Assembly (NCBI GenBank): GCA_000310025.1 | Contig: FN649739.1 | Span: 298,384-362,383, forward strand | Direction of reading: 5' to 3' | DNA: 64,000 nucleotides | Source: Ectocarpus siliculosus | Lineage: Eukaryota > Sar > Phaeophyceae > Ectocarpales > Ectocarpaceae | Shown here: positions 18,861-52,993 of the stretch, piece by piece | How positions within the stretch are numbered: position 1 is the first letter of the stretch | Layout of the letters: each line of letters starts with the position of its first letter | Position numbers and translations under genes: made by a program | The notes under the pieces: model-generated | The model's input: only the letters and a program-made list of their open reading frames with translations | What the model was told of the DNA's origin: nothing | Database searches by the model: none

Positions 18861-21800
18861 ATGGGGATCGCGCGGTTGGTGATCGATGCCCTCATCCTCG
18901 TCTTTGCCTCGGCATATGCCTTGATCAGCCTTGGCTACATAGCGACCATGTGGCACTTGCGGAAGAATTTTTTCATCGTGCTACGGTAAGAGTAATATCA
19001 CATGAGTATATACGGTTTGGGCTCAACAGGCAGGAGTCAAACCAACAGCAGCGAATGAATGGGGTTTGGGTGTGTGGTGCTTGCTTGGTGTGTGATGGCC
19101 GGTTGCTCGGTCGTCGTCGCGTTAGGCCTTTCTCGGAACCCATGGGAAGATATTTCAACCAATGTGGGTTTGATGCGTTGATGGATGTGGGTTTTGGTGC
19201 GTGATGGTTTCGAGGCGGAAGCCTTTCGCCCAAGTCTTGGGGTCGGAATCTTAATCTTGCATCTCTAGAGACGCTCAAGAAGAAGACGGACGCGTCCTGT
19301 GTGTCGACAGTCTGGCTATCTTCTGCTGTCTTCTACGTTACACGTAGTAGAGCCGAATGATAGCGAACGTCCGGCCTGATTCGGAGCTTGCCGCCGATAA
19401 TATATGTATGTGTGTGTGCACGGGTATGTCTTTTTTTTCATCGACCGCGCTAACCGGTTGAAACGCAAAATAATGCTTCTGAAGGCCACGATCTGGTACC
19501 AACCTTGTGACGGATGGGCGAGTCGATGTATGCTGCTACTCTCCGGATTTAAGACAGATATCGTATCTAGGAATAACAGAAGAACGCAGCACATGTTTGC
19601 CATGGCTGCTACTACTGTATACTTTGGATACGCGATACATGTATGTGCGTTTGGTGTGCGGTGCGTGTTCGTCCCATGTATGTATTCTGGTGCCGGTTCA
19701 CAGGCCTTTCGGCCTGAAGACCTGACGCATCATCAGCCGTCGTCACTCAAGAGGAAGGGCGCAAATGAACTTTTTTTCATTTTGTTTGTTTGTTTAAGTT
19801 TGTTTGCCGCACCTTTCCCCGTGTCGTGCCCGCGGTGCTTGCCTGAGGTTTGATTGCCGAATAACGACTTGCGCTTATTTATTACTTTTTTATTACGGTA
19901 TATGACACAAGATAACACACCCCCGGAACCGATTTCAAAGCTCGATTTATCAACAGTAGAAAGAGCTGTAGCGTCGAAAACGGCGGCATTGAAACCGTCT
20001 GGTCGACAGCTATCCTAAAATGCATTGTTTCATTTACGCGTCCCCTTCGTCGTGAAGAAATCGAGCTCTGAACATCGGTCCAGTGGGTGTGTTATCTTGT
20101 GTCATACGGTAGATTCTATGTAATCACGATCCTGACAGCGGGGAAAAGGCAGTATGCGTGACGGTGGTGGTGGTTGGTACTATGCGTGGTACTGCTGTAC
20201 GGCTCATGTTCGATGTGTCTGGTACTGTACACAGAACGCACCAACACTACGAGACACAAGACACATATCTTTATGGGGAAAGAGTGTTGGGTGTAGATCT
20301 TTTAGGCCATTTCTTGCGGTTGTCTTTTTTTATGATCTTTTTCTTTTTTCCTTCTCAAAAAAAGACAACTGGCCGTAGAAGGTCTTCTTACAATGTCTTT
20401 TTTCCTCAAAAAAAGATCGCCAGAAAAAGGCAACCCGTTTTGGACAGCCCATCCTGTCTTTTTTTGGGGGCAGTTTTGGACAAGTGGAGGCTGTCCAAAA
20501 CTGTTGTCTTTTTTTGGTCACAACCACATCACTCGTACCTAGAAACTTGAATCTCTCGACGGCCTACCGCAAACTCTAACGGCGGTCACACGAGTTGTGT
20601 CATGTTGCTGGGGTACAGAGTCGGTGGCACCGGCGGTAGCCAATGTTTTTTCAGTGGGTTGGACCACGTGGACAACCCGATGTGTGCGGCAAACAAGAGG
20701 CAAACAAACCGAGAGAGCCTGGACGCAGCAGCGGTGGGTCATTTTTCGTGTACTGTCAACCTTGCGAACCCAACTTTTGGGCGTCCTATAGCCTCCTGGT
20801 CTGTATCAATAATCACACAAGACGAACCATACGCACAGCTCGTGGCGCATGCCTTTATCATCGCTGTTGCTTGAGTGGGTGGCGAGGGAGTACTGGCAAA
20901 CCAAAGTTGCGACACGGGCAATAGAGCGAAAAAAGTTGCTTGAAGATGCGGCGGATCATTTTTCCCGCGTGTCCACCACTCTCGCGCTCACAATTTCTGA
21001 GCGTCCTATAGCCTCCTGGTCTGTATCAGCCACCACACAAGACGGACCATACACACAGCTCGTGGCGCATACCTTTGTCATCGCTGTTGCTAGCGTGGGT
21101 GGCGAGGGAGTACCGGTAAACCAAAGTTTTGACAGGGGCACAAGAGCAAAAAAAATGGTTGCTGGCGCGGTGGGCATTTTTTCAGCGTGCTGTCGACTCT
21201 CGGCACCTCCATTCCCGTGCCTCCTATCGCCTTGTGGTCTCTGTCAGCCGCCACCCAAGACGGACCATACACACAGCTCGCGAGGGATAGCTTTACAGTA
21301 GGCACTGCTTCACTCTGTGAGGAGATATCACCGAAAAACCATTTCGGTGGGAAGATATGTGTGACAGCAGCCGTTGCAGAGTCTGTTTTTTTTTGGTCGG
21401 TGAAAAAGGATCGACCAACACCGTAAGAAGGGGGTCATCTTTTTCGTAGATCCCTTTCTGGGTTGTCCGAAAGGGGGAAAAAAAGATCTGCGAAAAAAGA
21501 ACCGCAAGAAATGGCCTTAGGCCAACATTCACTTCCTTTCCGTTTTTATGGGTGAAAAATCTTGCGTCAGATCTCGGCAAGATTTCTCGGGGGAACAACA
21601 TTTTAGTGCACAAGTTGCACCTTCGGACAAATCTTAATCTTTTGTTATGGTATTTGGAGGTAGACAAGTGATCGTGGTTGATCATGGTTATTTGGCGCCG
21701 TCGGATGATGAGACGTGACGTCATGCTAGATCAGGGCTTTATGCCGAGACATGTGCCCTTCTGTTCAGTGTGTGCGTACAGGCGATCTATGATCGTGTGT

Positions 21801-24800
21801 GCGTGGGATATTGTGAGTTGGCTTGGAAAGCGTTAATCAAGAGAAAGAGAACAACGGAAAGCAACAACAACCTGCTACTGTGGTCGGACAAGAGAGTTCC
21901 ACACAGCTCAAAGGTGATTGATTCTGAAGGAAGGGGTCAAATACCATTACACTGGCGTCGTCGGCAGGACACGAACCTGCGCGTGAAATCACAATGGGTT
22001 TCCAATCCATTCCCCTTCAGCAGCCCCCCCTCTCCCATTTGCACCCACACGCGTGCAAACTACGAGTATGCCCGTTGTTAGACGGTCACGGCGTCTAGCT
22101 GGTAAACCACCATCTGACGCTCTCGATCTAGCACGGTCAACGGCCGCTCCAAGGCTTCCCGTGCCTGCCCATGAAATTACCGAAAAACGACTACACCCAG
22201 TTGTACCCCATGGTAATGCAATCTCGTCTGTTGGACCTTCACCCAGCTCACCGGCTCTAATGAGCATGGTTTGCAGCAGGCTCGCCCTTACCCTTCGGGG
22301 TATGGTTCGCAGAGCCCCTCGCTCACCGATCCTACGGGGTTTGGTTCGACGCGAAACCCACCCAGCTCACCGGCTCTAATGAGCATGGTTTGCAGCAGGC
22401 TCGCACTTACCCTTCGGGGTATGGTTCGCAGAGCCCCTCGCTCACCGATCCTACGGGATTTGGTTCGACGCGAAACCCTCCCACCGACCCACAGGGGTTC
22501 GGTGCGGAGCCCTCGCTCACCGATACTACGGGATTTGGTTCGACGCGAAACTCTCCCACCGACCCACAGGGGTTCGGTGCGGAGCACACGCTCACCGGTC
22601 CTTCGGGATTTGGTTCGCAGCGCATGGCGCTCACCGGCTCGAATTAGCTTGGTTCCGAGCCCCAGCACGCCGGCCCTGCGGGGTACGGTATGCCATACCA
22701 GCAGCAAGGGCTGTTGCTGAATCCACCACTGTCCATCGCGAGAGGTGGTTATGTGGTACCGCCCCCGGCCCAACCGTCATACAGCCAAATGGCGCAAGGA
22801 CCGCCGGATCTCAGCCTCCGAACGGGGGATGAATTGTTCCTTGACATTCCGGTGTCTAACTTCGCGCACGTGCACCAGCAGGCCTTCACGAAAGCATGCA
22901 GGATACAAGTCACCAAGGCGGCTACAGTGCTGACGACGATGTTAGAAACCTCGGAGAGACCTACGGTCACTCTCCGTGAATTCATGCATCACGTCGCTCA
23001 TGCCCCTACGGTAGATGCCCCACTAGTCGAATCGGTTACGCGCCTTCTGCACGGGCTCAGAGGAGGTTACGCTAACCTTACAGGTGGCTACCGTCCGACG
23101 GAGGTCAACTGGTACCTTCCCCCTTCGATTCTGCCAACGACGTTTGGTGCTTCTGCAGCATTCGCCAAGCAGACGGGCGATTTCCGTGTCGTCACTCACC
23201 GCAAGGTGAAGAAGGAGCGCGCTACCGACAGCAGCAGCTCCCACAGCCGTGGCAGCCGTGGTCGTGGTAGTGGTCGAGGTTCTTCCAGCAACCGTGGACG
23301 TGGTAACCATAACGGTCACCGTCAACGCGGTTCGCGAGGGTCGCGCTCTTCCGCAGCTAGCGAAAGTGACGCGTCGGCTTCCGTGGCCGCCAGCAGCTCC
23401 AAAAGATCGAATCGAGGCAAACGTGGCAAGAAGCGCTCTGGGTCCAACGGCCGCCGAGAGGAGGTCGCTGTGGAACGCAAGCCTTCGGCGACTAAAAGCG
23501 TCAGCAAGGAGGACACGAGTCGTGGCCGCCGTCGTAGCCGGAGTCATAGCAGGAGCTGTAGCCCACGCCGCCGCGGACACCGCCGCGGGCACCGAAGCAG
23601 CGACGGCTCGGAGGCACCAGCCTACGAGGATCACTCCCCGGAGGAGATCTTTGACGCAAACCAACCGCACCTGACCACCGATCTTCCACTGGAAGAGCGT
23701 CTGGACCAACCCCTGACAGCCCCGCGAGATGACAGGCAAGTACCGTTGTTGGGTGATGTCGCAGCCAGCGACCACTCATTGATGTCACGCAACAGTGCAT
23801 TCGTAGGCCATAACGCCCAACCGTTGTCGTCAACGACTGCTCGTGCTCGCCAAGTAGAGATAGACAAGGCTGACGCGCTTGCAGAAGCTGCACGAATCAG
23901 AGAGATCAGTGCGAAGTACATCAAGACGAAGTTTAGGGATATTCGTATACAACCATCGATCCCTTGGCCGGCAAACCTGAAACAGGCAGTGCCGCAGTTG
24001 TTAGATTCTATCAAGGCTGCAGCCTTAGATGTCTTGCAACAGGCTGACCCTTTCATCGATTTTGACAAATCCGATACGTGGGTTCGCGGGTGGGAAAACC
24101 CGCTGAAGAAAGCCATCATTAGCGCCGTATCCCCAAACAAGCAAACCACTGGTGACCTTATCAGCTCTATCAATGGTATGTTTGTGCAGGTGAAGCAGCG
24201 TATGGACGACGGTATGAACGGAGGAGAAGCTTTCAAGCACCTTCTTCGTCTGATCGCGTCCCACTTCAAGCATGAAGACCGTGGAGACGCCTTGACAACG
24301 CTGAATGCGTTCGGTGTTCCCAACGGAACTACGTTTGGAGAATTTTTGCGACAGTATCGTACTGCCGTGAACAACATCACGCACTATTCCAGTCTTTTTA
24401 GCCTAAACGAGACTTGGATTGTCGGGATCACAAGGAATAAGATCAACGACCAGTTTTCTGTGATGATGTCTGACTGTTTTCCGGGTGCAAAGCGTACCGC
24501 GGCAGAACCCTACAGTAGTCTGGATGAGATGTGGCGAGTGCTGAATGAGTTCACGACCTCTAAGGTTAAGGCAGAGAATGGCGAGCAATATGCTGCGCTC
24601 TCGCTTAGTGGATTATCGTTGCATTCGCAAGGCGGTAGTCGTTCTCAAGGACGTTCGACGACGCAATCGCAGCAGCCTTGGAGCTCCCAGGGAGCACGTG
24701 GCAAATCGGTCATGCGTGTTAAGGCAGAGCCAATTCATGATGTGTTTTGTGTTAGCTACGATGCTTGGCCGCTGGCCACCGATGATCATTGGGAGACAGT

Positions 24801-27800
24801 GCATGCTGTTGTTTCCAGTGGTTTCAAACGTCAACTCCCCCCCCTTTGGACACCACTCCTTAGGACTAGAGCTGACCGAGCACAAGCGTTCAGCGCGAAT
24901 GCTGGCCGTTGTTTAAACTGTCACGGGTCTGGCCACTCCATCAAACACTGTGAACAGCCTTTCACCAATGCTAGTGGTGTCCTGAACCCAGATTTAGGTG
25001 CACTGACTGATGGTGATGACATGTTTCGCCTGTGGCAAGAGCGCTTGCGGTCCTGGAGGACTAAGCCTGCGACTGCCACAACACACGGCTCACGCAACTC
25101 GAATGGCCAACAAAACCGGCGCCGTTCCCACAGACCAGCTCATAGAGTTCAATACGCTGGTAACGCTCCAAACCCGCAACAATACACTCAGACGTGGCAT
25201 CAACCGCCACCACAGGGCCTGCTGCAATCTAGTGCACCAGCCCAACAGCACACATTGGTAGCATACCAGCCTCATGCAGGTACTGCTCCAGCGTCTGCCA
25301 CACACGCGCAGCCGGCGTTAAGAATCAACAGCCGACTCCCCGTAGACTCCAACCCAAATGCCCGCACTCCTGGAACGTATAATGCTGGTAACTGACAGCC
25401 CAACGGCGGCTTGTCGTTACTCCCCGACCCGCCGATGGCAAAACAGGGAGCAGCTAGATATGTGTCGCAGGATGCGCGCATAGTAGGTACGGTCGAGTGT
25501 ACCACTCCTGTTCCTACAACCGACACTTCCGCTACAAGCGCTAGTGCTTCGACCTCATCGGGTGAAGATGGTGTAGCCCACACTCCCGATCACGGCAGCT
25601 TCAGCGCTGTCGTCAATGCATATACCCCAAGGTTAGGAACTCAAGGAGCGACCTGTCTTGAAGGCGGCTCCCCGAGTTTTAACACAGCTCGAGCAGCTTG
25701 CACACGCGGCAGCTTCAGCGCTGTCGTCAGTAAATATACCCCAAGGTTAGGAACTCAAGGAGCGACCTGTCTTGAAGGCGGCTCCCCGAGTTTTAACACA
25801 GCTCGAGCAGCTTGCACAACCCACGATTACACCACGTTGCCGCCCGCAAACCAGCCTGAACCATTACGTGTTGGCTACACGAATGCAAGGGTCGGTTTGA
25901 GGTGCGGGTACGGAAGGTCGGGATTGTCGAGCATGCCCAAGAGGTCCGCTCAGACGTCCTCGTGGAAGACCGTTAAGACACCTACGTTGTCGACAATACA
26001 TGAAATGTCGCCGGGTTTAGCCACCTCGAGCGATGCTTTGGACATGTCCACTACGTACGGGTCATCGACAGCCTGCGGCGATACAGCCGATGGAACTCGA
26101 GACGGTAATAAAAGTCACTCGCCGCACGGTGAAGCGAGTATGACCGATTGCGTTGAAAGAAATACGCGTCGATTTCCCGTGGTTTGCGATTCGCGGAGTA
26201 CCAAAACTGAGCGGTCCCCAACCGCGACCACGGAGGTGCTGACAACACCGTATTCGGAGGACGCTCCGATTGCGCCCCTCGCTGAACAAACAGCGAAAAA
26301 CTCGCGACCCTCGTCAAGGGAGGTCCGTCATGTCTCCAACGTGATGGATTCTAGCGAAAGCACTACAGACTATACACCCCCACCGGGTTGCGCTGTTGGA
26401 AGAGTAGAGGACTTGGGGAAACAGACATCCCCCTCCTCCGCTATAGCTGGTATTCGTATCTACCCTCCTCCTCCGACCGACGCCAGGTGTTCACCACCAG
26501 CGTTTGATCCGAGCAAGGAGTACTGCACACCTGACATGGTGTTGTTCTGGCAAGCCCCGTCGTTTTTCTCGCAATGGACGCCCTCCGTCTTTACTGTAGA
26601 TGGTGTGGAATACTCTTGTGGAGAACAATTCTTCGCGGCTGTCAAGGCTCGTCTCTTTGGCGACCAAGATACGTTGCGGCGGATTATGCGTGTTTCTGAC
26701 CCGATTAAACATAAGCGTTACGGACGCCAAGTTAAAGGGTTTGATGAAGCTGTTTGGGAGCGCGAGCGTGAAAACGTGGTGCGTGTCGCCTCCTACTACA
26801 AATTTTCGCAAAATCCCGCTATGCGACAACATCTTTTGGGCACCGGCGACAAAATGCTCGTCGAAGCTAGCCCATTCGATGCCATATGGGGCATTGGACA
26901 TCGCGCGGATGATCCTGCTGCAATCCAACCCTCTTTATGGCGGGGCTCCAATCTGCTCGGCAAAAGCCTGCAGGTTGTTCGAGACCTACTCCGAGAGCAC
27001 GCGCCGACGCCGACACTTCCACCACAAGTTTCGTCCGACGCTCAGCTCCGGAATACAATACATGAGGTTAACCCTGCAACGCAAGAGCGTATTTCGACGG
27101 CTGCCGCCGAGGAGGCCGCCCCGTCGTCAGGTTACCGCATAAAATCAGCGCATGTTCCAAGGGATCACAGCGCTGAAGTTCTCGCGGTTACGTCCGCTGA
27201 GTATCATGAGGAAGATCGTGTACCGTTGCTCGCTGAGCATGGTCCTTGCCTCGTAGGTGGTGTTGTTACAGTTGACGACGCTTCATTTACGACTCGAGTC
27301 AAAATCCACGCTGGGCCAGCCAAATCACAATATGGTTGCGCCGCTCTGCTCGATTCAGGATCACCGGCCACGTTCATCAACAGCAACGCTGTCGGTACCC
27401 TCAAAGCCATGGGAGCCATCTCAGAGGCTTGCATATCGCACGGTAATTCACGTTCTTGGGGAGGTTTTGGTAAATCCGAGTCTCTTCAGACGTCTGATAC
27501 AGTCCGTCTGAGTGTGCAATTTTTCCACGGTGATACGCCTTCGGCTTCTCTTGCCGTTTGGGCGCACATCGTCCCTGCAAACACCATGCAGTTTCCCATC
27601 CTATTGGGACGCGATAGTTTCATGCGATTTAACACTCGCACGTACCGTATGTTGCCTCCGAGGCCACTGGACAATCGCGTTTTTGGTGAATATACGCTTG
27701 CCCACCAGGATGATTCTGGTGCGGTCGCGTATGTGCCCGATTTCACAGCCCCGGCGGACCAATTCCAGCTCCGTTATGCAGGGCCAACGGGTACTTCATT

Positions 27801-30800
27801 GTCAGACGACCACCAAATGATTGAAGTCAACTTGGTGCGTTCCAACGGTACACCGGCTCTGACCGGTCAATACCTTGTCGACATGTTGCCTGATGTTTCG
27901 TCGAACGAAGAGATCTTTGTCTCCGACGGACGTCAGTTTGTGCCGCTCGCGGGCGCTGCAGAACTTGAGCCAGGAGACTTGCTCGGTACTGCTGCCGCCC
28001 CGCTGATGCGCGTCCCGGTAGAGCATTTAGAACAACAGTTTAGTGACGAAGCTGACACTTCATGTTCGGTGCCTGGACCTATTTTGGGTTCTACCGAGGA
28101 TAACGCGGACAGGACCGTCGATCCGCAGGTGCGTTGCCACGATCCCTTCGTGCACAACCTACGATCCACCGATCTTCCTGTGCCGGACCCAGGGAAATCA
28201 CCCCCTGCGGCCCCTGCCCCCGCTCACACTTCGCCCTCGCCGCCACCACAGCATGTGATGGAGCGGTTGAGCGCTGATCAGAGAGTTAGCTTTGAGTCAT
28301 TGTGGAATCGCTTACCGCCTCACCTGAAGTTGGTTAAGTTTGATTTACACGGTCCTGGTTGGTCACCAGAGGTCATCACAGAACTTGGTGATCTTTTACA
28401 TGATTTCCAAGACGTGTTTTCCACATCCTCGACGGATTTAGGGTCCTGTTCCCTGATGCCGTTTGAGATCAAAGTACCTCCGGATTGTCCCCCTGTGACG
28501 TCCAAACCGTACCGTATGAATCCTTTGGTTGCAAAGCAAGTCGATGCCATTTTGGACCAGTATCTAGCTGCTGGCCTAATTCAGCACTCGACCTCTCCTT
28601 ATTCCAGCCCCATCGTGGTTATACCAAAGAAGTCTGGTGGAATACGCATCACGGTTAACTACCGAAAGTTGAACCATATCAGCAGCTTTGGTCAACTTCC
28701 CATCCCCCGAGTCGACGAGATTCTAACGAAACTCAACAGAGGTTCGATTTTCTCGTTATTCGATTTCACGGGTTCTTTCCACCAGATCACTGTCCACAAG
28801 GACACTATCCCCCTTACGGCTTTTGCGACCCCCACTCGTTTGTTCGAATGGCTCCGCATGCCGATGGGTGCTAGCCAATCCGCAGGCCACTTTGTAAAAG
28901 TGATTAACGAAGTAATCAAAGGACTCGATGGAGTCGAGGCATACCTCGATGACGTCGTTGTTTTTGACGAAGGCCCACTGCAGCATGTCCGTAATATGCG
29001 CACGCTCTTCGAACGGTTGAGAAAGTACGACCTCAAACTTTCTCCCTCGAAAGCCACCATCGGTACCACCAAGGCTGACTTCTTGGGGCACACCATATCT
29101 TCGAAAGGTGTCCTCCCCAACGCCCGTAAAGTAGCCGCCCTGGCAGGTATGCCCATGCCGACGACCGTCAAGCAACTCAGGTCACTCATGGGTGGTCTGA
29201 GCTACTACCGACGTTTCCTCAGAGACATGGCCAAGCGTGTGAAGTCCATTACGCACTTGCTCAAAAAAGGTGTTCCCTTCGCTTTCACGAGCGACATGGA
29301 AACAACTGTTCGCAGCCTACTGGCTGAGCTCGCGAAACCGCCCATTTTAGTGTTTCCTGATTGGGACGCTATTGCGGACGGCACACGCCCTTTACGTCTT
29401 TGCTGTGACGCCAGCTCCGACGGTCTCGGCGCCGCGCTGGAGCAAGAGCAGAAAGACGGCTCGGTACGGCCGATCGTTTTCATCAGCAGAGCCACGCTCG
29501 ACGCTGAACGCAACTGGACCGCTCTCGATCTCGAAGCAGGAGCCGTTGTATGGGCGATCAAGCGTCTCCGCGAATACCTTCGTGGCACACACTTCCGCAT
29601 CTATTCCGACAATAAGGCGCTGGAAAGTTTGTCAAAAATCAGCGAGCACAACCCACGCGTCCAACGCTGGATTGAGTTCCTTGAAGCATACAGCTACACG
29701 TTGGAGTACCGACGAGGTGCCTCCAACGGAAACGCTGACATGCTGTCTCGTCTGCCGATTGAGCCTACTGCCGCCGACATCAACGGTAACAGTCGTTTGA
29801 CGTCCCCAGAAGACGTTGGTGTGTATCTGATCCGAGCGACAGGTCACGCACCACCCGGACAAACCACGCCTGGCGTTGGTTTGGGTGGGCTGGCGCCCCC
29901 GAGCGAGAACGCCGCTTTGGGTGGGCTACCCCTCACTTCCGATGATTTTGCGGATTTTCGCAAACACGGGCCTCGCATGAGGATTGACGACCTTGATGCT
30001 CCTGCAGGAGAATTCGTCGCTCGTGTTTTTCCGTACGTCAATGCGCGAGGACCTTTGCGACACCTTGCGGACGATCGTGCATTGTCTTGCACCGACCACT
30101 CCGTATTTGCTGTGCCTGAGGTTACTTCCGCTGCAACCCAGAAAATACAGGGCGCTGTGCCGGCACTCCGGTCTTCAGCTTCTCCTGTTGTGTCTCCGAT
30201 GAGACCATTGTATAGGGACACCGCCACGGTTTACGGACCGTCTGCGCGACCCCACACGGATACAGCTGCATTTGCGCTCCCTGTCCACGACACACAGACC
30301 GCCGACGATAACTCTCGGTTGCCCCCTGTCGTGTCTCATGCGACTGCAACTGTCGACGCCGGCTCCCACTCTGATCGTTTGGATGCCGCCGACTCATTGC
30401 GGCCGCCTTCGACCTCTCGGTTGCAACCGCATCGTATTGATCCGTCGGAACTGATCTCTACTCGTACGCGTCGCCGAACCGCGGCTGCTGCGGGTCAGCC
30501 TCAACCCGATGTAAACTACGGTTTCGGTCCTGATTTGTCGATCCCCCCACACGTTCCGCGTGCAGGCGCTTCTCGTCGTCAAACACGAGTGACACCAGCT
30601 GCCACCACGCCTGAGCCTGCTGTCGAACCTGTCCCAACGGTGCCTATAGCGCCGCCGGAGACGGTTACCGACGCCCCTACGGGTCCTCTGTTGGGTTTGT
30701 CACAACCGGCTGCTGCAGCTGGTAAGGCAACGCCCGCAGTGGATTCCATGGTCCTCAATCCTGCAGAGTTAGAATTCCGTGAGTCCGTCGAACGCTACAC

Positions 30801-33800
30801 GCGTGCAGATTGGGCGCGGGAACAGCAGAAAGAGCCGGTGTGTGAAGCCACCATCCGCTACATTCTCCTCAAACGCCCTCAGAGTCTACCTGTCGATTTC
30901 TTTGCCAGAGTGTCATATCACTCCAGGCATAGACCCTCGTTGGAGGATATTCGAGAGCTTGCAGATAAAGGACGCCTCGTCACTGACGATGGCCTTTGCC
31001 TCTTGGTACGAAAGAATACCAAGCCCCCGGTCTCTTCTGACCGTCCCGGAGGACGAGCTGCACGTCTGTTGAATGACGAACCCACTCGTATTTACGTGCC
31101 CATGTTAATGCGACCTTGGGTCATGCAAGCTTGTCATGCCAACGCCCTCTGCCACCTTGGTACCGCTCGCACGCTCAGCTTGCTTGAGAGGTTTTACTGG
31201 TGGATTGGGATGAGTATCAGTACTCGTTGGTGGATTCGGCGATGTTTGAAATGTCAGGCCCGCAAAACTGCGCGCCAGACTATTCGCTGGCCGATTCTCA
31301 CGATCCCTCTGCCTTCGGCACCAGGGGTCGCGATTAGCGTCGACTATTTTGGTCCGCTTCCCACAACTCCGCGAGGTTTCTCGTATATTTTGCTATTCAC
31401 TGACCGTTTCAGTCGGAGAGCCAATATGTACGCAGTGACTGACGCCGAGTTCACAGCTGAAGGTACAGCTGACGTCCTTGTCAATAAATACATGCCTGTT
31501 TGGGGATGCCCCCTCAGCATTCTTTCTGACAATGGATTGCAGTTTTGCTCCAAACTGTCGGTTGCCATCCTAAAATTGCTACGCGTCCGAAAAATTACGA
31601 CGAGCGCGTACCACCCTAGCGGCAACGGAGGAGTTGAGCGCGTGAACCACACCATGGCCCAGATGCTGGCGATGGTTGTGAACGAACGACAAGATGATTG
31701 GGACATTCATCTCCCTCATGTTGAATTCGCGTACAACAACTCCGTTAGCGCTGCCACAGGATTGGCGCCCAATGAGGTGCATATGGCGCGCCTTCCCAGG
31801 TTTCCACTGACCGTTTTTGACAACATTTACGCTCGTGGTCACCAGTCGCTTGCCCGCGATCAGCTCGAGTATTGCAACCTTGCCGCCGATAGGGCAACGG
31901 CGCTCCTACGAGCTAGTGCGTGAACAACACGAACTCACAGTTTCCCGTATGGAAAGACGGAACTCGAAACTGTCTGATGCCTTACACAAACTACCCGTTT
32001 ACGCTACCGGTGGTTGGGTGTGGGTCTACAACCATTTGGCTACCATCCGCCAAGGTGCCAAACTCACTTCCAAGGCCCGCGCAGACGCTGACTCCCAGGT
32101 ACTCAAGAAGAAGCTGTCCTTGAATTGGACAGGTCCTTTTAAAATCCTAGCAGTCGGTCCTTGCAACAAGGCTCCCGATGGCAGCCCGATGGCTGACAAG
32201 CTCCTGTTCTTGGATCTTCCCTCCGATATGCCCGGAGTGGATGCCAAGCGCCGAGTTTCTGTCGCTCGTTGCAAACCGTGTGCGAACCCGCACGATAGTG
32301 ACGACATGCCTCGGTTCTTGCCTGCAGGCCTCACGCAGTATGTTCTCAACAACTACACGACGAAATCTCCGCCGTACCATGTTACCGCGGACGATGTTTC
32401 GGTGCCTGTCCGTAGGCTCGAGGTTGAGAAACTCACGGGACACCAGTCGGTTCGAGGACGTGGCGGCGTTATCGCAGTCATGTACGAGACCCACTGGAAA
32501 GGTCTTCTGCGGCCCTCGTGGGAACGAGAAATGGACCTCCAACACTCCCGAAAACAGATTCTTCTGTATTGGGCTGGTAACACCCGACCAACACCGGCAG
32601 ACTAACCGTCTGTATCGTCGCATGCGCATTGGCGCAGCGGAACGTGAACTGTCTCGCATCAAAGGCGAGCGGTCCTCGTCGCCCGGGTACGAATATGTTC
32701 CCCGCGATGTTTGGGCCCGCCGTTTTCGCAACACCGTGCTGCCTGTTGGCGCACACTTCTGGTACAAGGCTCAAGACGCTCTGTGGTGGCTAGGGAAAAT
32801 CTCCGGACATACTCCAACTACAAACGTCTTCGTCGTTCGCTTCCTGGATGACCCTGGACCTGTCAAGATCACCCTCTCCCCTTCGCGCTACACGACAGCT
32901 TTGGGAGCTGTTTGTGGTTCTTGGTGCCTTCAGCTGCACCGAAGTAGTCCCTTCATGCGAGGTATCTTACGCAATGTAGACGAGTCGCGTGGTACGGCTA
33001 TAGATGCCTGATAGCACTGTGGCATTGTTTTCCTTGTTTTATGTGTATGTATATGTATGTGTATATGTTTGTGTGTTACATGTTTGTGTTTATGTATGTT
33101 TGTCTGTATGTTTCCAGCTCGCCCTCTCGATCTATTTTCGAGACTGGCTATTGCTTCTGTATGTTTCTAGCTCGCCCTCTCGATCTATTTTCGAGACTGG
33201 CTATTGCTTCTTCTGTATGTTTCTAGCTCGCCCTCTCGATCTATTTTCGAGACTGGCTATTGCTTCTGTATGTTTCTAGCTCGCCCTCTCGATCGATTTT
33301 TGAGACTGGCTATTGCTTCTGCATGTTTCTAGCTCGCCCTCTCGAATATTTCGAGACTGGCTATTGCTTCTGCATGTTTCTAGCTCGCCCTCTCGAATAT
33401 TTCGAGACTGGCTATTGCTCCTTTATGCTTTCCGCTCGCCCTCTCAATCTCTTTGAGACTGGCTCTTGCTTTTGTGTTGCGTACTTTCGCGCCCCGTTTG
33501 TCACTTCTCGGTCGGTTGTCGAAAGTTTTCGCTCCCCTTTACCTATTTTTCAATGCGACCTAGGTTCGTCATTAGTTGCGGTGACACCCAAATTTGGTGC
33601 ATCATTTAACCCCCCACCCTATGGTTTGCTTTGCATATTTTGTGGTCCAACGTTCCGTCAGTGCTTCTATCGCATGCCACGGCCAACGTGTTCCATCTTG
33701 GTACTTTCTTTAGCATTTTTCTTCATACAATTGGCCTTGACGTACACGTAGGATTGTCTTCCTCGCCCCACCCCGATCGCAAGCACGTTGTATCGTGACA

Positions 33801-36800
33801 TGCGAACGTTGTTTTTGGCGTTGGTTCCTGTCCTTTTCTTTGGCCGTTGTTTACGTTCCCCGGAAACCCCCTCTTTTCCTGCTTTTCTCGATTTTGGTCG
33901 ACCCCTAACGGTTTTCCATGTCGTTTGATCCTTTGCAGGCTCGGTTTTCGTTTCTTATTCTTTATGTTTACATTTCAGCACTCGATCGCATCGTAGCCCC
34001 CCTTCCCGTAAGGTTCTGGCTTACTTGATTGCGTATTCGATCGGTTCATCCGTACGAGATCGTTTGTGATTTTCTCTTCACGATTTCGTTACTTCGTGTT
34101 ATGGTCTTTTCGGTTCGGATGTTTTGGTTATTTTTCGCACCCATGTGCCTTTTACCGATTTTATCCACCGACTTTGCCGCCCCGGCTTCTGTGTTTTCTT
34201 CTTTCTTGGTTCCGCTTCTTTGGTTTGGTTAACGGAGAGGTGCGGGTGAGGGTTTTGAGTTGTCGTATCTTCGATCCATCCCGCAATCCTCTTGATTGAC
34301 TAGAGTCCCTCCGAGGTTTGCTTCTGTATCTGCATCTACGTCCACTCAGGGTGGGCTATTGTTATGGTATTTGGAGGTAGACAAGTGATCGTGGTTGATC
34401 ATGGTTATTTGGCGCCCTCGGATGATGAGACGTGACGTCATGCTAGATCAGGGCTTTATGCTGAGACATGTGCCCTTCTGTTCAGTGTGTGCGTACAGGC
34501 GATCTATGATCGTGTGTGCGTGGGATATTGTGAGTTGGCTTGGAAAGCGTTAATCAAGAGAAAGAGAACAACGGAAAGCAACAACAACCTGCTACTGTGG
34601 TCGGACAAGAGAGTTCCACACAGCTCAAAGGTGATTGATTCTGAAGGAAGGGGTCAAATACCATTACACTTTACCCCAGATTGACAAGTCTTTCCCCAGA
34701 TTTGTCAGTTCGAGCTTTCTTACAAATCTTGGAGCGGGTCATAGATCATGGGTGCGACAAGATTTCTACAGGTCAGTCAACCTTATCGTCCATACCGCTA
34801 TATGAAACTTGCACCGTGACACATTCGTCAAGACCTCCTGGCTTCACTGTGTCGACGCCACGAGCGCCGACAGTGGAAAAATGCGATCTACATTACATTA
34901 ACTTCCGGTGTGTCGGTGACCTCTTTCCACAATCAGGTCTCCTATTTTGGCATGCACGAGCGGGCTCGGCATCACGGTGCGCTACACAGTTACGATGTAC
35001 GGTTTGGTGGTGGGGCGAAACTTGGAAATCGTAAACCTCATCGGCTTCCCAGCGCTGTGGATTGCCGAGATAGCGCTGATTCTGACGGCATTGCGGCTGT
35101 TCGTCATGTACTACCCCAGCACACGAGCCAAGTACGGAAGAGTGACCAGAGAAAAGCCGTGGGCTTGCGGCCTGGTAGCCACCTACCTTCTGGTGGAAAC
35201 GGTGGTATGGTTGGCAGCTGCAATGCAGGGTACCAAGAGGTGAGGAATGAAAATGAAGCAGGGTAGGCTACAGGATTCGAGGTTTCGCGTCGCGTGAGCC
35301 CCCCTCAACTACTGTCATGGACACGTGTAACTGCTGCTGCCGTGTGTTTGTGTTTTTTTATTAGCATCGACCGCGCTGACCGCCTGACCAATGAAAAGTC
35401 AGTCTCAGTGCGTGTGTGTGCTTGTGCGTGAGAGAGAGAGGAGAGAAGTTGAGTGAGAGAGAGACGTGTATATATATATATATATACTACTACTATACAA
35501 GGTCTCTATTCGGGACGTGGGTATCAAGCCTCCCGCGCGTGACCCAAGACCAACATGCATGCGCATTGCCCGAAGAAGGGGCCTTGTGTCTTACTTTTGA
35601 CGGGAAGTTTTGTAACGCTCGTATTACGTACAAAACATCGCGCACGTAGTTATTCTACATTGATCGGAGCCAGCTCGAGCGGACAACAGTTGCCAGCGAA
35701 AATCTGCTAATTGTATGTAGTGTGATTGACGATAGCAGGTTTCCAACGAGAACCAAGTCGATTTCGAAACAACACCACCAAAATACCATGTTCAACACTG
35801 CGGGTGCATGCGGTAAGACTTGTCTACAGCAGCAAGCAGCGTTTCACTTGGCCCGCTGCAAAGTGTAAACGAGCAAACGTTGGTACTGTTGGACATTGCC
35901 ATGAAACCTGGAGACATAGCGATGTGGCCAGCAAATGAATGAATTAATGAATTGGAAATGAACAGACCAAGAAGCAGCGACATATCTCAACTGTCGTTTT
36001 TGAATGGGTGTCGCCAGGCGTTGTCTGCGCGGAACGCGCCCCCGGGATGTAGAGCCAGTTTTGGCGACCTTGACCGTTGACCACACGCGTCACGGAGGCC
36101 TACCGAGCTCCGGGTACGAGCGCTACATTGTAATGTACCTCGAGCGTGCCCCTGAGGAGGAACCCCTGAGGAGGAATCGCAAGAAAAAACTTGTTGCAAC
36201 GAGAGGAAGCAATGCCGAAGCATGAAAGGTGACCAAACATTTATGTACACACATACATATGGAGAGATACGTTGTAGAGACAGATACAGACAGACAGACA
36301 GGTAGACAGACAGACAGACTCAGTCAAGATCACTATCCAGAAACTATCTAGCCTTGCACGTTTTGTGAAGTGTGTCAATATTGCGTCTAACATCGAGAGC
36401 CGACTCCGCCGCTGACATTCCTCGCAGAGTTGCAGCCGTCATGACGAACCTGGGCCCGCTCTCGGCGTTCATCACTCTCATGGCGGTGGCATGCCTCGGC
36501 CGCCAGTTGAAGCGGATCCACGACCTCAGCAACATGGGCCGGGATATTCGCCTGATTGGGATAATTCTGCTAATATGTTTACGTGAGTGATGGCATTGAC
36601 TACGTCAAGTGAGCGTGTACATCTAATCCCTTTGCGTGAAACATCTTGGTGGTTATTGCTTTGGGGAGTACTGCCCGAAGCACTGCCATGAACTAGGACC
36701 CCGTGAGGGGGCAGCATGGGGGGGGGGGGGGGGGGAAGGACCGGTATCGTGGTTTTGGTAGTCCGACGCACTTATAAGCATGAGCCACCGCCGCAAGTGC

Positions 36801-40322: not shown

Positions 40323-41617
40323 GCCCCACACGGGGAGAGTCGACTATTGTCGGCACGCACGCAGCCGCTAGCATCAACATCGTGTTGAACGATTGCGAAT
40401 ATTGAAAAACTGAACTGGCGCGTACAACATGTTTATCAGCAAGGTGAAATCAACGACGTAAATTAGTGTGTCCTTGGGGCACCGGAACCTTCCATTTTGC
40501 TACGAAAGGTCGTGACCTCAACGTTGATTGTCCAGGCGACAAGGGATACCTCCGGCGTTTCACACCGAAGGCCATGCACTCGAAGGCCATGCAAACGGGT
40601 GGCTCTTGCTCTTCAGAGTTCCACCCATTATGACCTCTATTTTCGGGTCCCTCTTGCCCCTTTGCCCTCTTGCAAGGCCAAGCAACGATTAACGATTATT
40701 TCGTGGTCACCACGATGTCACCCCGGGATGTTCCACGGAAGCGAGATTGGCCTCGACCTTCTTGTCGTCGTTACCCGCCGGAAGAAGTGAAACTCCTGTG
40801 GACGCCTTCCTTCGGGATCGAAACAAAAGAAGAAGCAACACCCCCGTTCCCCAGTTTTGACCGGGCGGCCTTTTTTTTCTTCCCGTTGCAACACGAGCCA
40901 TGGCTTGCTGTCCACGCTAACTCAAACGTTGGCTGGCGCTTTCAATGGGCGGACGTTTCCCGGTACACTTCACTCGCACAAATGGCGGAGTCCTAGTGTA
41001 GGTGTTCGAATGGAATGAAGGCAAAATAGCCAGCAGACCCCCGCTACTCGACGTCGGTCTGAACGCCTGCCCCCTCGGAAGCTACATGTTTGTAGCATCC
41101 GCATATATATATATTCTGTAGATGATGATACAAAAGGGGTCTGTTCTGACATCGCACTAGGTACATACCAGATCAAGGGGGCGGCGGCGGACACTCTTGG
41201 ATGTCCTGACTGTGACAGTTCCTCCATGATCCGCAAAGACTACACTGCTACTCTGTAATAATAAGTTGTGAATATAATGCATTGTTGTCCAAAATACAAA
41301 AAAATTGCATAATGCAAATGCGATAGTCTATATATAGCTGCGAAAAAAGTACTGTACCGTGGGGACACAGACACCGTCGCCGGCCGTCGCAGGGGCCAAG
41401 CATCATTAACTTTTGTTGTTCCTCCTGCTATTGCTCCTGCTACGTATGTATGCCTATGTGTACGCAACGGGCTCAAGCCAGAGACAACTGCTGGGTAGAC
41501 ATGTCGGCGTCTGAGAACACCTCGTTACTCTATTTTGTCCCGGGCTGAGATGCGCGCGGCGGTGGGGGTTATTACGCGGGCGAATCGAAGAGCAAAGGCA
41601 ACACAACGCAACGTTGT
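40323..41617 (+). other. 3' flank of copy A and partial 5' flank of copy B; no gene
   Basis: The first part (to about 41130) is homologous to the 3' flank of copy B (59781-60720), with a replaced stretch at 40480-40760 versus 59920-60120. The last part (41456-41618) matches the upstream block found before copies A and C. No exon is recognised. Confidence 0.5.
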
Positions 41618-41630
41618 TAAATGACAAGTA

Positions 41631-42260
41631 CTAGGGTTAAGTATTGGCCCCCCGCCCCCCAATGGGGCTGGGGGCCAACATCCAGGAAGGATGGTGGTGA
41701 GTGTCCGGGAGGAAGGAAGGAAGAAGAAGAAGAAAAAGGGGAGAGGATTTGTAGGTGCGGGAAGAAGGGACGGTGTTGGGAGAGGCAAGGAAGGAAGTGG
41801 TGAAGAGTTTCGGCACTCGACGAGCGCGCGGTCCCGTTGGGGGTGAAAGGGACATGTCAGTCCGTAGTCTTGTCTATCGGAATCGAAAAGCCGAAAAACC
41901 GAGGTATACATTATGTATGTACATAACGATGGAGAAGGCCGACGAGGAAGGTACGAAGAGAGGAAATTGCACCCCACGTTCGAAGTTCGAAGTCCGTGTG
42001 AAAACCGCGGCAAGGATGGAGTGCGAAGGAAAAAAAAAAAAAAGGAGACGTCGACGTTTGCGTCGTGGAACGATCCTTCCGTATAACGCAGGTACTCACC
42101 AATGCAAGACGGGGAGGTAAAATACCCATCGTGAAAGTCAAAGCGCAGGTCATAACCAATCGCATATATGTGACTCATGCGCGGAGAAGTTACGACGCGG
42201 ACTTATCAACAAGAAGTTTGAAGGCCGACTGAGAAGGTTTCAAGACACAAATACTCCACA
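41631..42260 (-). mobile_element. Helitron-like repeat, copy 1 (minus orientation)
   Basis: On the minus strand the element ends with a GC-rich hairpin (GGCCCCCAGCCCC AT TGGGGGGCGGGGGGCC), eleven bases, and then CTAG followed by T. This fits the Helitron 3' signature (hairpin, about ten bases, CTRR, insertion before T). It is highly similar to 52385-52993 over about 600 bp. No Rep/helicase is encoded, so it would be non-autonomous. The 5' end (expected TC after A) is not clear, so classification is tentative. Confidence 0.5.
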
Positions 42261-50800: not shown

Positions 50801-52384
50801 GTATGAAATGGTCTAGAATCATTTTAGTATATACGAAGGGCTCCGGACTTCGGGGGGGGGGGGGATTTGGGGGGGGGACTCTAATTTCTATATATTTGAG
50901 TAAGGGGCACGGCGGATAGAAAACCCTCTACAATAGGGGGTCAATTACATATTTTCGTGAACGAAGCCTCCAATACTAATTCCTATATAAGACAGAAATC
51001 GAAACTGCCCTCCCGCGGGTGTGTGTGTGTGTGTGCGTGTGGCCCATGCGTCCAGATTTATGTTTCACGTAGACCATTGGGTTAACACACAGCCAGCTTC
51101 ATGGAAACGCACACGTCATCGGAAAATAGCTAGTTACGCCGCATCTTAACGCCAACACACCAGAAGAAAGCGGGGACAAGGTCCAAACAGCCCCTGAAAC
51201 AAGTCTACTTCGTACTACACTGCGTGGTTGCATGCAGCAACAGTAGAATACATATACTGTTGATCATGTTACATATATACTCACAGGATGGTCGTCGTGA
51301 CGTGATACATTTCTTGTTATTAGTATGGAAAGAAATAAAAAAAAGATGGCTCGATTTTTGTATTTCTACAGCAGTATGGACCAGACGCCGACTGTACATG
51401 GAAGTCGTACGAGTGTCGACTCAGTTGTGCTGTCGCAGCATCTTCCACGCACTTCTGCCAGTGCTGGTTTGTTGATTGGAGTCTTGTAGGTCGAGATACA
51501 GCAGTGGGATTCTCGGGTTGTGGAGGCAAAAGTGAACCAGAGCAAAACATTTCATGCATAGCTCGATTACTGCTGTGTTTTTGCAACAGCGGTATGGACT
51601 AGACGCCGAACGACGTCCGCGTACTACCGCAACGACCTAACTGGATGGGATACTTCTTGCCACGGCAAACCATAGTACAGTGCGATGCAAACATCCGTTC
51701 GTGTGTCGCGCGGCTGCCACGTGTGTCGACGACAGGTACACGTAGAGCTCTCGCCATGTTGTCGTTACCGCGCAGGAGGACCCCTCGGAGATCTTCCACA
51801 TGGTGCTACAACGACAGCAGTACTACTGTACATAGATGTCGTAGGAGAGTGGAGTTGTGCAGTCACGGCTTCTTCCACGCACTCTCCTACCGGTGCTTGC
51901 GTCGATTGGAGTCTTGTAGGCCGAAATACAAGAGTGGGTTGGGTTCCCGGGTTGTGGAAGCAAACCTGCCTGCAACAACAGAGAAGGCGGTGTTCTATTT
52001 ACTAGAGTACCCCGCTCAACTTTTTTTTTTTGCGACATGTGGTTGCATATTTCTTTGCCACTGCCGAAAAAGACCGCTGGATCTTTACGCAGTCCACCTT
52101 TCGCATTTATCATTTTACACCGAACGACGCAGGACGGGTCGACCTTCATCATTGTTGTTGTTGTTGTGCCTTCACATTAAAAATCGTTCCCATCTCTCTC
52201 TACCCAGTACCTTCATATGTCCGTACTTACTTGTGGATTACCTGTTGGAAATTGTGGGAATCCCTTCATTCCGAGAGAGCCACAGGTCGGCATCCGGCCT
52301 TTTCTTTTTTTGTATGCACTTTTCTTATAATATGCACTTTTCTTCCTGTGAAGTTTTGACGTTGCGCTTGCCATCGTCGCTGAA
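50801..52384. other. Intergenic stretch with a diverged direct repeat of about 230 bp
   Basis: Segments near 51365-51540 and 51815-51970 share TCTTCCACGCACT, GATTGGAGTCTTGTAGG, GAAATACA/GAGATACAGCAGTGGG and GGTTGTGGAGGCAAA, so this is an old duplication. A 359-codon open frame crossing this area and the following repeat has no protein-like features. Confidence 0.45.
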
Positions 52385-52993
52385 TGAAGTGTTCGTGGCT
52401 TCAAACCTTCTCAGCCGGCCTTCAAACTTCTTGCTTGTGATAAGTCTCCGTGGTAACTTCTCCGCGCATGAGTCATATGCAGTTATGACCTGCGCTTTGA
52501 CTTTCACGATGGGTATTTTACCTCCTCTCTTTTTGTCTTGCATTGGTGAGTACCTGCGTTATACGGAAGGATCGTTCCACGACGCAAACGTCGACGTCTC
52601 CGTTTTTTTTTTGTTCCCTCCGCACTCCTTCCTTGCGGCGGTTTTCACACCGACTTCGAACGTGGGGTGCAATTTCCTCTCGTCGTACCTTCCTCGTCCG
52701 CCTTCTCCATCGATATGTACATAATGTATACCTCGATTTTTCGGCTTTTCGATTCCGATAGAGACAAGACTACGGACTGACATTTCCCTTTCGCCCCAGA
52801 CGGGACCGCGCGCTCGTCGAGTGCCGAAATTCTTCACCACTTCCTTGCCTCTCCCAACACCGTCCCTTCTTCCCGCCCCAACAAATCTTCTCCCCTTCTT
52901 CTTCTTTCCTTCCTCCCGGACACTCACCACCATCCGTCCTGGATGTTGGCCCCCAGCCCCATTGGGGGGCGGGGGGCCAATCCTTAACCCTAG
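52385..52993 (+). mobile_element. Helitron-like repeat, copy 2 (plus orientation)
   Basis: It ends with the same GC-rich hairpin at about 52948-52979, spacer AATCCTTAACC and CTAG (52990-52993) followed by T. It shares about 600 bp with copy 1 in inverted orientation, including a C/T-rich stretch and CGCATGAGTCA. The base after it (TACTAAATAGTCACGATC) rejoins sequence homologous to the copy A intron at about 20120. Confidence 0.5.

Follow-up and report, generated by a model that had tools for sequence, protein, structure and literature searches.

A window of 64,000 nucleotides (nt) of Ectocarpus siliculosus DNA (contig FN649739.1 of assembly GCA_000310025.1, positions 298,384 to 362,383 of the forward strand) contains a Ty3/gypsy retrotransposon whose Pol polyprotein carries, in its N-terminal part, a domain that by its sequence is a complete YbiA-type NADAR. 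This domain is most likely a working ADP-ribosyl hydrolase, captured from the host, that would guard the nucleic acids of the element. The original prediction, made from the letters of the window, had proposed the fusion and could not say whether it had been described before. It is already known: Dinatale et al. 2025 (PMC12477816), in the available parts of that paper, report a NADAR-Pol fusion in Ectocarpus sp. 7, call its function unclear and suggest a bacterial origin. No second paper on the fusion was found among the matches listed, most of the subscription literature lying outside the search. Added here are the constraint and selection on the active site, host NADAR genes with a likely host origin of the domain, and a conserved TGA-C at the end of gag.

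The NADAR domain and its conservation among copies

Positions 26521-26997 of the window translate to 159 residues without a stop. Residues 9-158 match the Pfam family NADAR (PF08719) over profile positions 2-163 of 163, with E 5.5e-48 and 163.7 bits against a cut-off of 35.1. The match lies in frame in a Pol frame of 2175 codons, between the gag TGA at 25393-25395 and the DSG motif of the protease from 27346, just as had been predicted; the profile search proposed at that time thus gave a significant hit and not the empty result that was to speak against the prediction. Only two solved structures were matched by sequence at E <= 0.001 and both are NADAR/YbiA proteins (8bau, E 7.7e-18; 2b3w, E 2.7e-10). 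An AlphaFold model of the domain has a mean predicted local distance difference test score (pLDDT) of 97. Its best match in the Protein Data Bank (PDB) is 8bau, the ADP-ribose-bound NADAR of Phytophthora nicotianae, with a template modelling score (TM) of 0.90, and the TM to E. coli YbiA (2b3w) is 0.80.

A genome of 189 Mb in 492 contigs was searched with the PF08719 profile, and at least 150 NADAR matches were found over the cut-off (150 of 230 candidates were scored). These consist of 40 copies read with flanks, 76 read as NADAR stretches, 33 remaining and mostly partial matches, and the window itself. Of the 150, 149 are closest to retroelement families; the other belongs to a host gene, as one of its exons. 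The 116 copies read first, together with the window, fall at 85% linkage into seven families (F0 to F6), with L052 and L053 standing apart as copies with local frame shifts; the latter were rejected as separate families, and are counted among the 117 copies for residues but left out of family comparisons. Thirty-two of the other 33 matches are clearly closest to retroelement families, and L157, which is not, led to the host gene. In 39 of the 40 flanked copies, all but L036, NADAR is followed on its own strand by reverse transcriptase (RT), with a partial RT match in a few. NADAR and RT also stand together in polyproteins P0065 and P0066 from records named Ectocarpus sp. CCAP 1310/34. The profile match, the at least 150 genomic matches and the downstream RT rule out a chance or one-off insertion, the outcome that a search for further family members had been proposed to expose. 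In a scan for close relatives, viral contigs yielded three distant NADAR loci (39-42%).

Residue roles and ligand contacts of the P. nicotianae NADAR are described in the available parts of PMC11543638, and the contacts were mapped by sequence alignment to 8bau, on the assumption that the residue numbers of the chain and of the paper differ by two. E35, K42 and E115 of the domain are the counterparts of catalytic E43 and K50 and of the subfamily residue E125. Among the 117 copies, E35, E115 and D120 are each kept in 115, K42 in 110 and W123 in 116. The same majority residue is found in all seven families at 10 of the 11 ligand-contact columns versus 55 of the 139 other columns (Fisher p 0.001). 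Together with the fit to 8bau, this bears out the conserved active site that had been claimed, and the accompanying view that the domain looks catalytically competent gains support from these columns and from the selection described next.

Selection was analyzed in 115 copies of the seven families, where a shared variant is one present in two or more copies. Shared variants mostly arose in replicating lineages, and singletons include decay after insertion. Shared variants of NADAR within families comprise 86 synonymous and 39 non-synonymous changes, a ratio of non-synonymous to synonymous polymorphism (pN/pS) of 0.13, and singletons comprise 131 and 249 (pN/pS 0.56). In the 31 copies available for RT, the ratios are 0.05 for shared variants and 0.55 for singletons, and NADAR in the same copies gives 0.13 (23 changes) and 0.30. 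The linker between the TGA and NADAR reaches 0.74 (21 copies). A gag stretch gives 0.57 (21 copies), ranging on few changes from 0.12 in F1 to 2.61 in F0, with the F3 value probably inflated by misalignment. NADAR is therefore an island of constraint under purifying selection beside a loose linker, and a decayed passenger is ruled out. F2, the family of the window, contributes just nine shared changes (ratio 0.38), so most of the signal is owed to the remaining families. Between families, 15 of the 21 pairs are saturated at synonymous sites of NADAR and five more have a synonymous divergence (dS) above 2, which indicates long retention under selection. The least diverged pair, F1-F6, has a ratio of non-synonymous to synonymous divergence (dN/dS) of 0.18.

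Organization of the element and the gag-pol junction

The element with its long terminal repeats (LTRs) spans about 21.64-34.67 kb. Coordinates below are positions within the 64,000-nt window.

21643..21951, + strand: 5' LTR with TG...CA ends, from LTR-LTR alignment and flanks
21953..21980, + strand: primer-binding site that would pair with tRNA-Ser(AGA) at its T arm and 3' end
22648..25392, + strand: gag open frame from the frame list, without Pfam match
25393..25395, + strand: in-frame TGA followed by C, gag/pol border, candidate readthrough codon
25396..26520, + strand: fast-evolving linker at the start of Pol, pooled pN/pS 0.74, without Pfam match
26503..26523, + strand: FDPSKEY motif directly upstream of NADAR
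26545..26994, + strand: NADAR domain, Pfam boundaries
26623-26625, 26644-26646, 26863-26865, 26878-26880 and 26887-26889, + strand: active-site codons of E35, K42, E115, D120 and W123, respectively
27346..27375, + strand: aspartic-protease motif LLDSGSPATF, DSG motif alone
28621..29097, + strand: reverse transcriptase RVT_1 (Pfam), YLDD at 28942
29383..29691, + strand: RNase H (Pfam RT_RNaseH, E 3.2e-32)
31096..31617, + strand: integrase, H2C2 zinc-binding domain and rve core (Pfam)
31811..32605, + strand: continuation of the integrase C terminus in another frame (frame list, Pfam)
34360..34668, + strand: 3' LTR, from LTR-LTR alignment

The two LTRs align over 312 bp with two mismatches, and a 4-bp target-site duplication, CTTT, flanks the element at 21639-21642 and 34669-34672. 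With the tRNA primer site and a Pol order of protease, RT, RNase H and integrase, in which the protease is placed by motif only, these are the features of Ty3/gypsy elements (Metaviridae). The 24-nt pattern of the primer site occurs at four places of the genome with at most one mismatch, namely the element's own site and three places with one mismatch; ARAGORN predicts tRNA-Ser(aga) over one of these three and nothing over the other two. The gag frame has a zinc-knuckle-like motif, CLNCHGSGHSIKHC, read by eye. Pfam identifies NADAR, RVT_1, RNase H, the integrase zinc-binding domain and rve in the Pol frame (25396-31923), and no protease model matched in Pol, so that the protease is known here from its motif.

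Pol of the window copy is broken near 31.8-31.9 kb, where the frame stops at 31923 and homology continues in another frame. At least one frame change follows the integrase core within 31811-33011, and the C terminus is unbroken in the relative P0064. A weak chromodomain-like match lies at 32420-32572; neither this match (Chromo E 0.016) nor the one in P0064 (E 0.026) reaches the Pfam cut-off. In P0064 the chromodomain-like stretch is followed by a W-rich segment (FWYKAQDGFWWLGKIS...), present too in the window frame 32151-33011. A Tudor-like second reader domain was suspected there by eye and dropped, as Pfam finds nothing. The element also has tandem repeats, with units of about 75 bp near the gag start (22277-22659) and about 53 bp after pol (33050-33474), and its linker holds two copies of a 112-nt direct repeat (25593-25818). 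Elsewhere in the window, two distant open frames, 41525-42202 (- strand) and 51603-52724 (+ strand), share the peptide SCIGEYLRYTEGSFHDANVDVS and may belong to another repeat family.

The gag frame ends with TGA-C and the same frame runs on towards NADAR in five families (F0, F1, F2, F3 and F5); F4 and F6 fall outside this comparison. TGA-C was found at the place typical of the family in 26 of 41 copies (F0 4/6, F1 7/9, F2 7/12, F3 6/10 and F5 2/4). It is the sole in-frame stop upstream of NADAR, within the stretch read, in 19 of the 41, so that no other stop interrupts the frame to either side of the TGA. UGA-C is a leaky stop context. In Tca2, a UGA reportedly stands between gag and pol (PMC2194720). 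Pol may be made by readthrough of the in-frame UGA-C, and the conserved TGA-C would give the lineage a simple expression mechanism. In some copies of one family the distance from the gag TGA to NADAR is 114 nt shorter (offsets 1014 and 1128), as if one unit of the 112-nt repeat were missing.

The gag stop could instead be removed by splicing. Annotated protein P0066 joins gag to the linker and skips about 0.64 kb of family-copy sequence (L032 583 to 1226), including the TGA at 698. This gene model may be an artefact of the gene finder, and both the frame open on either side of the TGA-C and its conservation in five families argue against splicing, which we consider unlikely.

Host NADAR genes and the origin of the domain

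The genome has at least two free-standing host NADAR genes with introns, both on contig C24.

C24 ~329,990-332,590 (within L161, C24:328600-333600): type I host NADAR, three exons with GT-AG borders
C24 ~2,125,200-2,127,000 (L170, C24:2124200-2127010): type II host NADAR, four exons as tblastn blocks

Type I has relatives in Pylaiella (P0084, 81%) and in EukProt record P0073 (83%). Over three exons, type II shows 87, 90 and 95% identity to its counterpart in Ectocarpus sp. 13, whose own identity to that of E. fasciculatus is 80%; Pylaiella gives 61%. These values, together with P0065 and P0066, suggest that the genome is that of an Ectocarpus; a search of the assembly for the RuBisCO large subunit gave no match. 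The N terminus of type II is rich in Cys and His, and Pfam put no name to this region in the type II relative P0102. Brown-algal or ochrophyte NADAR genes were found in records named Pylaiella, Scytosiphon, Ectocarpus and Tribonema. Types I and II agree in where the first and the last intron interrupt the domain (after VDG/VDN and after GDK/GEK). Retro-NADARs have no introns, which would fit either capture from mRNA or a bacterial source.

A short motif just before the domain reads FDGTREY in brown-algal host type II and FDPSKEY in the window. A pattern of the FDxxxEY type was found in 14 of the 150 retrieved proteins with a domain start: seven retro or retro-like proteins, two of which are short pieces outside the trees, five of type II and two jgi proteins. 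It is present in 21 of 40 genomic copies (F0, F2 and F5), and absent from host type I, Tribonema and P0160. Nor was it found in the four named bacterial rows examined, one of which, a Planctomycetota protein, has the partial form FDGSSVIE. As a possible sign of host origin the motif is supportive only.

In a 73-row tree, whose bootstrap had not fully settled, the 17 retro-NADAR rows form one clade (support 73/78), which is joined with host types I and II at 71/94.6. Monophyly of retro-NADARs received 100/95 and 97/95 in earlier trees and is weaker with more host sequences; six long or deep rows were dropped between the two earlier trees, and redundant rows were removed before the 73-row tree. 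Holding retro-NADARs with the P0005 group, which is mostly bacterial or unnamed, costs 24.8 log-likelihood units (p 0.06 in the approximately unbiased, AU, test), and holding them with type II alone costs 6.4 units (p 0.36).

An alternative is that the domain was acquired from bacteria by horizontal transfer, with the same function. Blastp hits outside Ectocarpus are almost all bacterial in the parts of PMC12477816 available, where this origin was proposed, and many of the close free-standing relatives found here are also bacterial or unnamed. The AU test leaves a grouping of retro and bacterial sequences unrejected (p 0.27 and 0.20 in a smaller, poorer set, and 0.06 in the widest). Against transfer stand the existence of brown-algal and ochrophyte NADAR genes, the widest tree, which puts retro-NADARs with two brown-algal host types, the 24.8 units lost in the P0005-group constraint, and an FDGTxEY-type motif common to retro and host type II sequences and missing, save for one partial form, from the four named bacterial rows. 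We regard bacterial transfer as distinctly unlikely and lean towards capture from the host. The host genes tilt the likely origin of the domain away from bacteria and towards a captured cellular gene.

Proposed function and comparison with known systems

We tentatively favor, with doubt still slightly outweighing confidence, the explanation that NADAR was taken up from spliced host mRNA and kept as a working Gag-Pol enzyme acting on guanine-ADP-ribose adducts. A Ty3/gypsy lineage would have taken up the domain probably once, and probably as a spliced host NADAR mRNA. It would be made as the N-terminal part of Pol, ahead of the protease, after readthrough of UGA-C, and its place in Gag-Pol would deliver it with RT into the virus-like particle. 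There it may hydrolyze the N-glycosidic ADP-ribose on guanine, or a like adduct, of element RNA, primer tRNA or cDNA; removal of the adduct would keep the template copyable, in a house-cleaning or counter-defence role. The original prediction, which is borne out in part, had likewise put forward a countering of ADP-ribosylation of the cDNA, a possible role. NADARs assayed so far, that of Phytophthora included, remove ADP-ribose from guanine and not from thymine (PMC11543638 and PMC11125620, in their available parts), and those of several subfamilies hydrolyze guanine-ADP-ribose in vitro (PMC11125620). Since this is the best-supported chemistry of the superfamily, such adducts are what the domain would most likely clear.

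The best-known settings of reversible ADP-ribosylation of nucleic acids are toxin-antitoxin systems of bacteria and conflicts with phages (PMC11543638, PMC11125620). A reversing enzyme kept under selection throughout the divergence of the families would suggest that a eukaryote has a mark whose removal is of use. The domain is small and well modelled, and 105 of the 117 copies are stop-free (12 have an in-frame stop), so its activity and substrate are directly testable.

Several observations weigh against this explanation. Although active in vitro, neither E. coli YbiA nor a phage NADAR protects cells from DarT1 (PMC11125620); an activity measured in vitro may therefore not reflect the role. 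Among candidate writers of the mark, DarT (PF14487) is without a match in the genome and, by Pfam, in those parts of the element that were searched; PARP gives four short genomic matches (26-33 bits), of which two contain an inner stop. Within the pocket, the contact position of D86 is free to vary, and every family has F in place of Y84. The copies were ranked by NADAR score, which lowers non-synonymous counts in NADAR and not in RT. At the junction, the stop is absent from its place in 14 of the 41 copies (one for want of upstream sequence, the others apparently through frame changes or rearrangement), one F3 copy has TGA-G, and no conserved RNA structure follows the TGA in six junctions (folding z -1.5 to 0.7, none shared by eye). 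As to origin, the strict FDxxxEY motif fails in F1 and F3 (0 of 19 copies), and bacterial placement is not rejected by the AU test.

Other functions were weighed on the same evidence. The domain might act on small molecules, such as riboflavin intermediates or cyclic or phosphorylated ADP-ribose, and blunt a host signal derived from NAD, a reading already raised in the original prediction. It finds support in the activity of YbiA and in the action on diffusible ADP-ribose derivatives proposed for viral NADARs (PMC11543638, PMC9503650). Fixation in Gag-Pol beside RT and protease would fit a nucleic-acid substrate in the particle better, and for eukaryotic RNA viruses macromolecular targets are favored in the available parts of PMC9503650; we give this role little credence. 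Equally doubtful to us is a role in processing the RNA intermediate, such as cleaning up RNA ends or the tRNA primer. Such a role was proposed in general terms in PMC12477816, NADARs are linked with RNA-repair systems (PMC9503650) and the primer site of the element fits tRNA-Ser, whereas Pfam detects no RNA-repair partner domain in the polyprotein pieces searched.

A more far-reaching form of the favored explanation, which seems to us rather improbable, is that the domain is a packaged eraser of guanine ADP-ribosylation, from a captured spliced host NADAR, and that brown algae use ADP-ribose as a defence mark. If true, brown algae would mark foreign or retroelement nucleic acids with ADP-ribose, and the host NADARs would be the matching enzymes of self-protection. 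A non-catalytic binder of ADP-ribose or nucleic acid, or a structural spacer, is permitted by the position between loose linkers, with nothing direct in its favor, and is very improbable given that E35 and E115 persist in nearly all copies, that ligand-contact columns are more constrained than others, and that a spacer would not give a shared-variant ratio of 0.13 beside a linker at 0.74.

The free-standing P. nicotianae NADAR (8bau) shares with the domain the fold (TM 0.90), the ADP-ribose pocket and the equivalents of E43, K50, E125, D130 and W133, and differs in sequence, with 33% identity over the structural alignment. E. coli YbiA (2b3w) belongs to the same superfamily. The domain has the glutamate of the YbiA subfamily at the E125 equivalent, where NADAR antitoxins linked to DarT1 have aspartate (PMC11543638). 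Unlike in the DarT1-NADAR systems, no ADP-ribosyltransferase (ART) toxin partner was seen with the element, and a search of the genome gave no match to the DarT family.

A NADAR also lies inside the replicase polyprotein of nidoviruses and other animal RNA viruses (PMC9503650). Structural matches of the domain include yellow head virus and Wenling nido-like virus, at 20-23% identity; such viruses differ from the element in using an RNA-dependent RNA polymerase. The dUTPase borne by Pol or Pro of some retroviruses is a house-cleaning enzyme of nucleotides in Gag-Pol. Its fold and chemistry are unrelated to those of NADAR, and the likeness is one of analogy only. Among retroelements, Tx1 long interspersed nuclear elements (LINEs) of Crassostrea gigas have a NADAR-like first open reading frame (ORF1), reported as divergent and not part of a Ty3/gypsy Pol (PMC12477816).

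The closest system is the lineage of Gypsy-12_Ec32 and kin in Ectocarpus sp. 7, where a YbiA-type NADAR is found lineage-wide at the N-terminal region of Pol, with a putative C-terminal chromodomain too in Gypsy-12_Ec32 (PMC12477816). The available parts of that paper contain no analysis of selection, active site or host genes and propose a bacterial origin. The window element, which likewise comes from an Ectocarpus genome and has its NADAR in the N-terminal part of Pol, probably belongs to this same lineage, as compared by description only.

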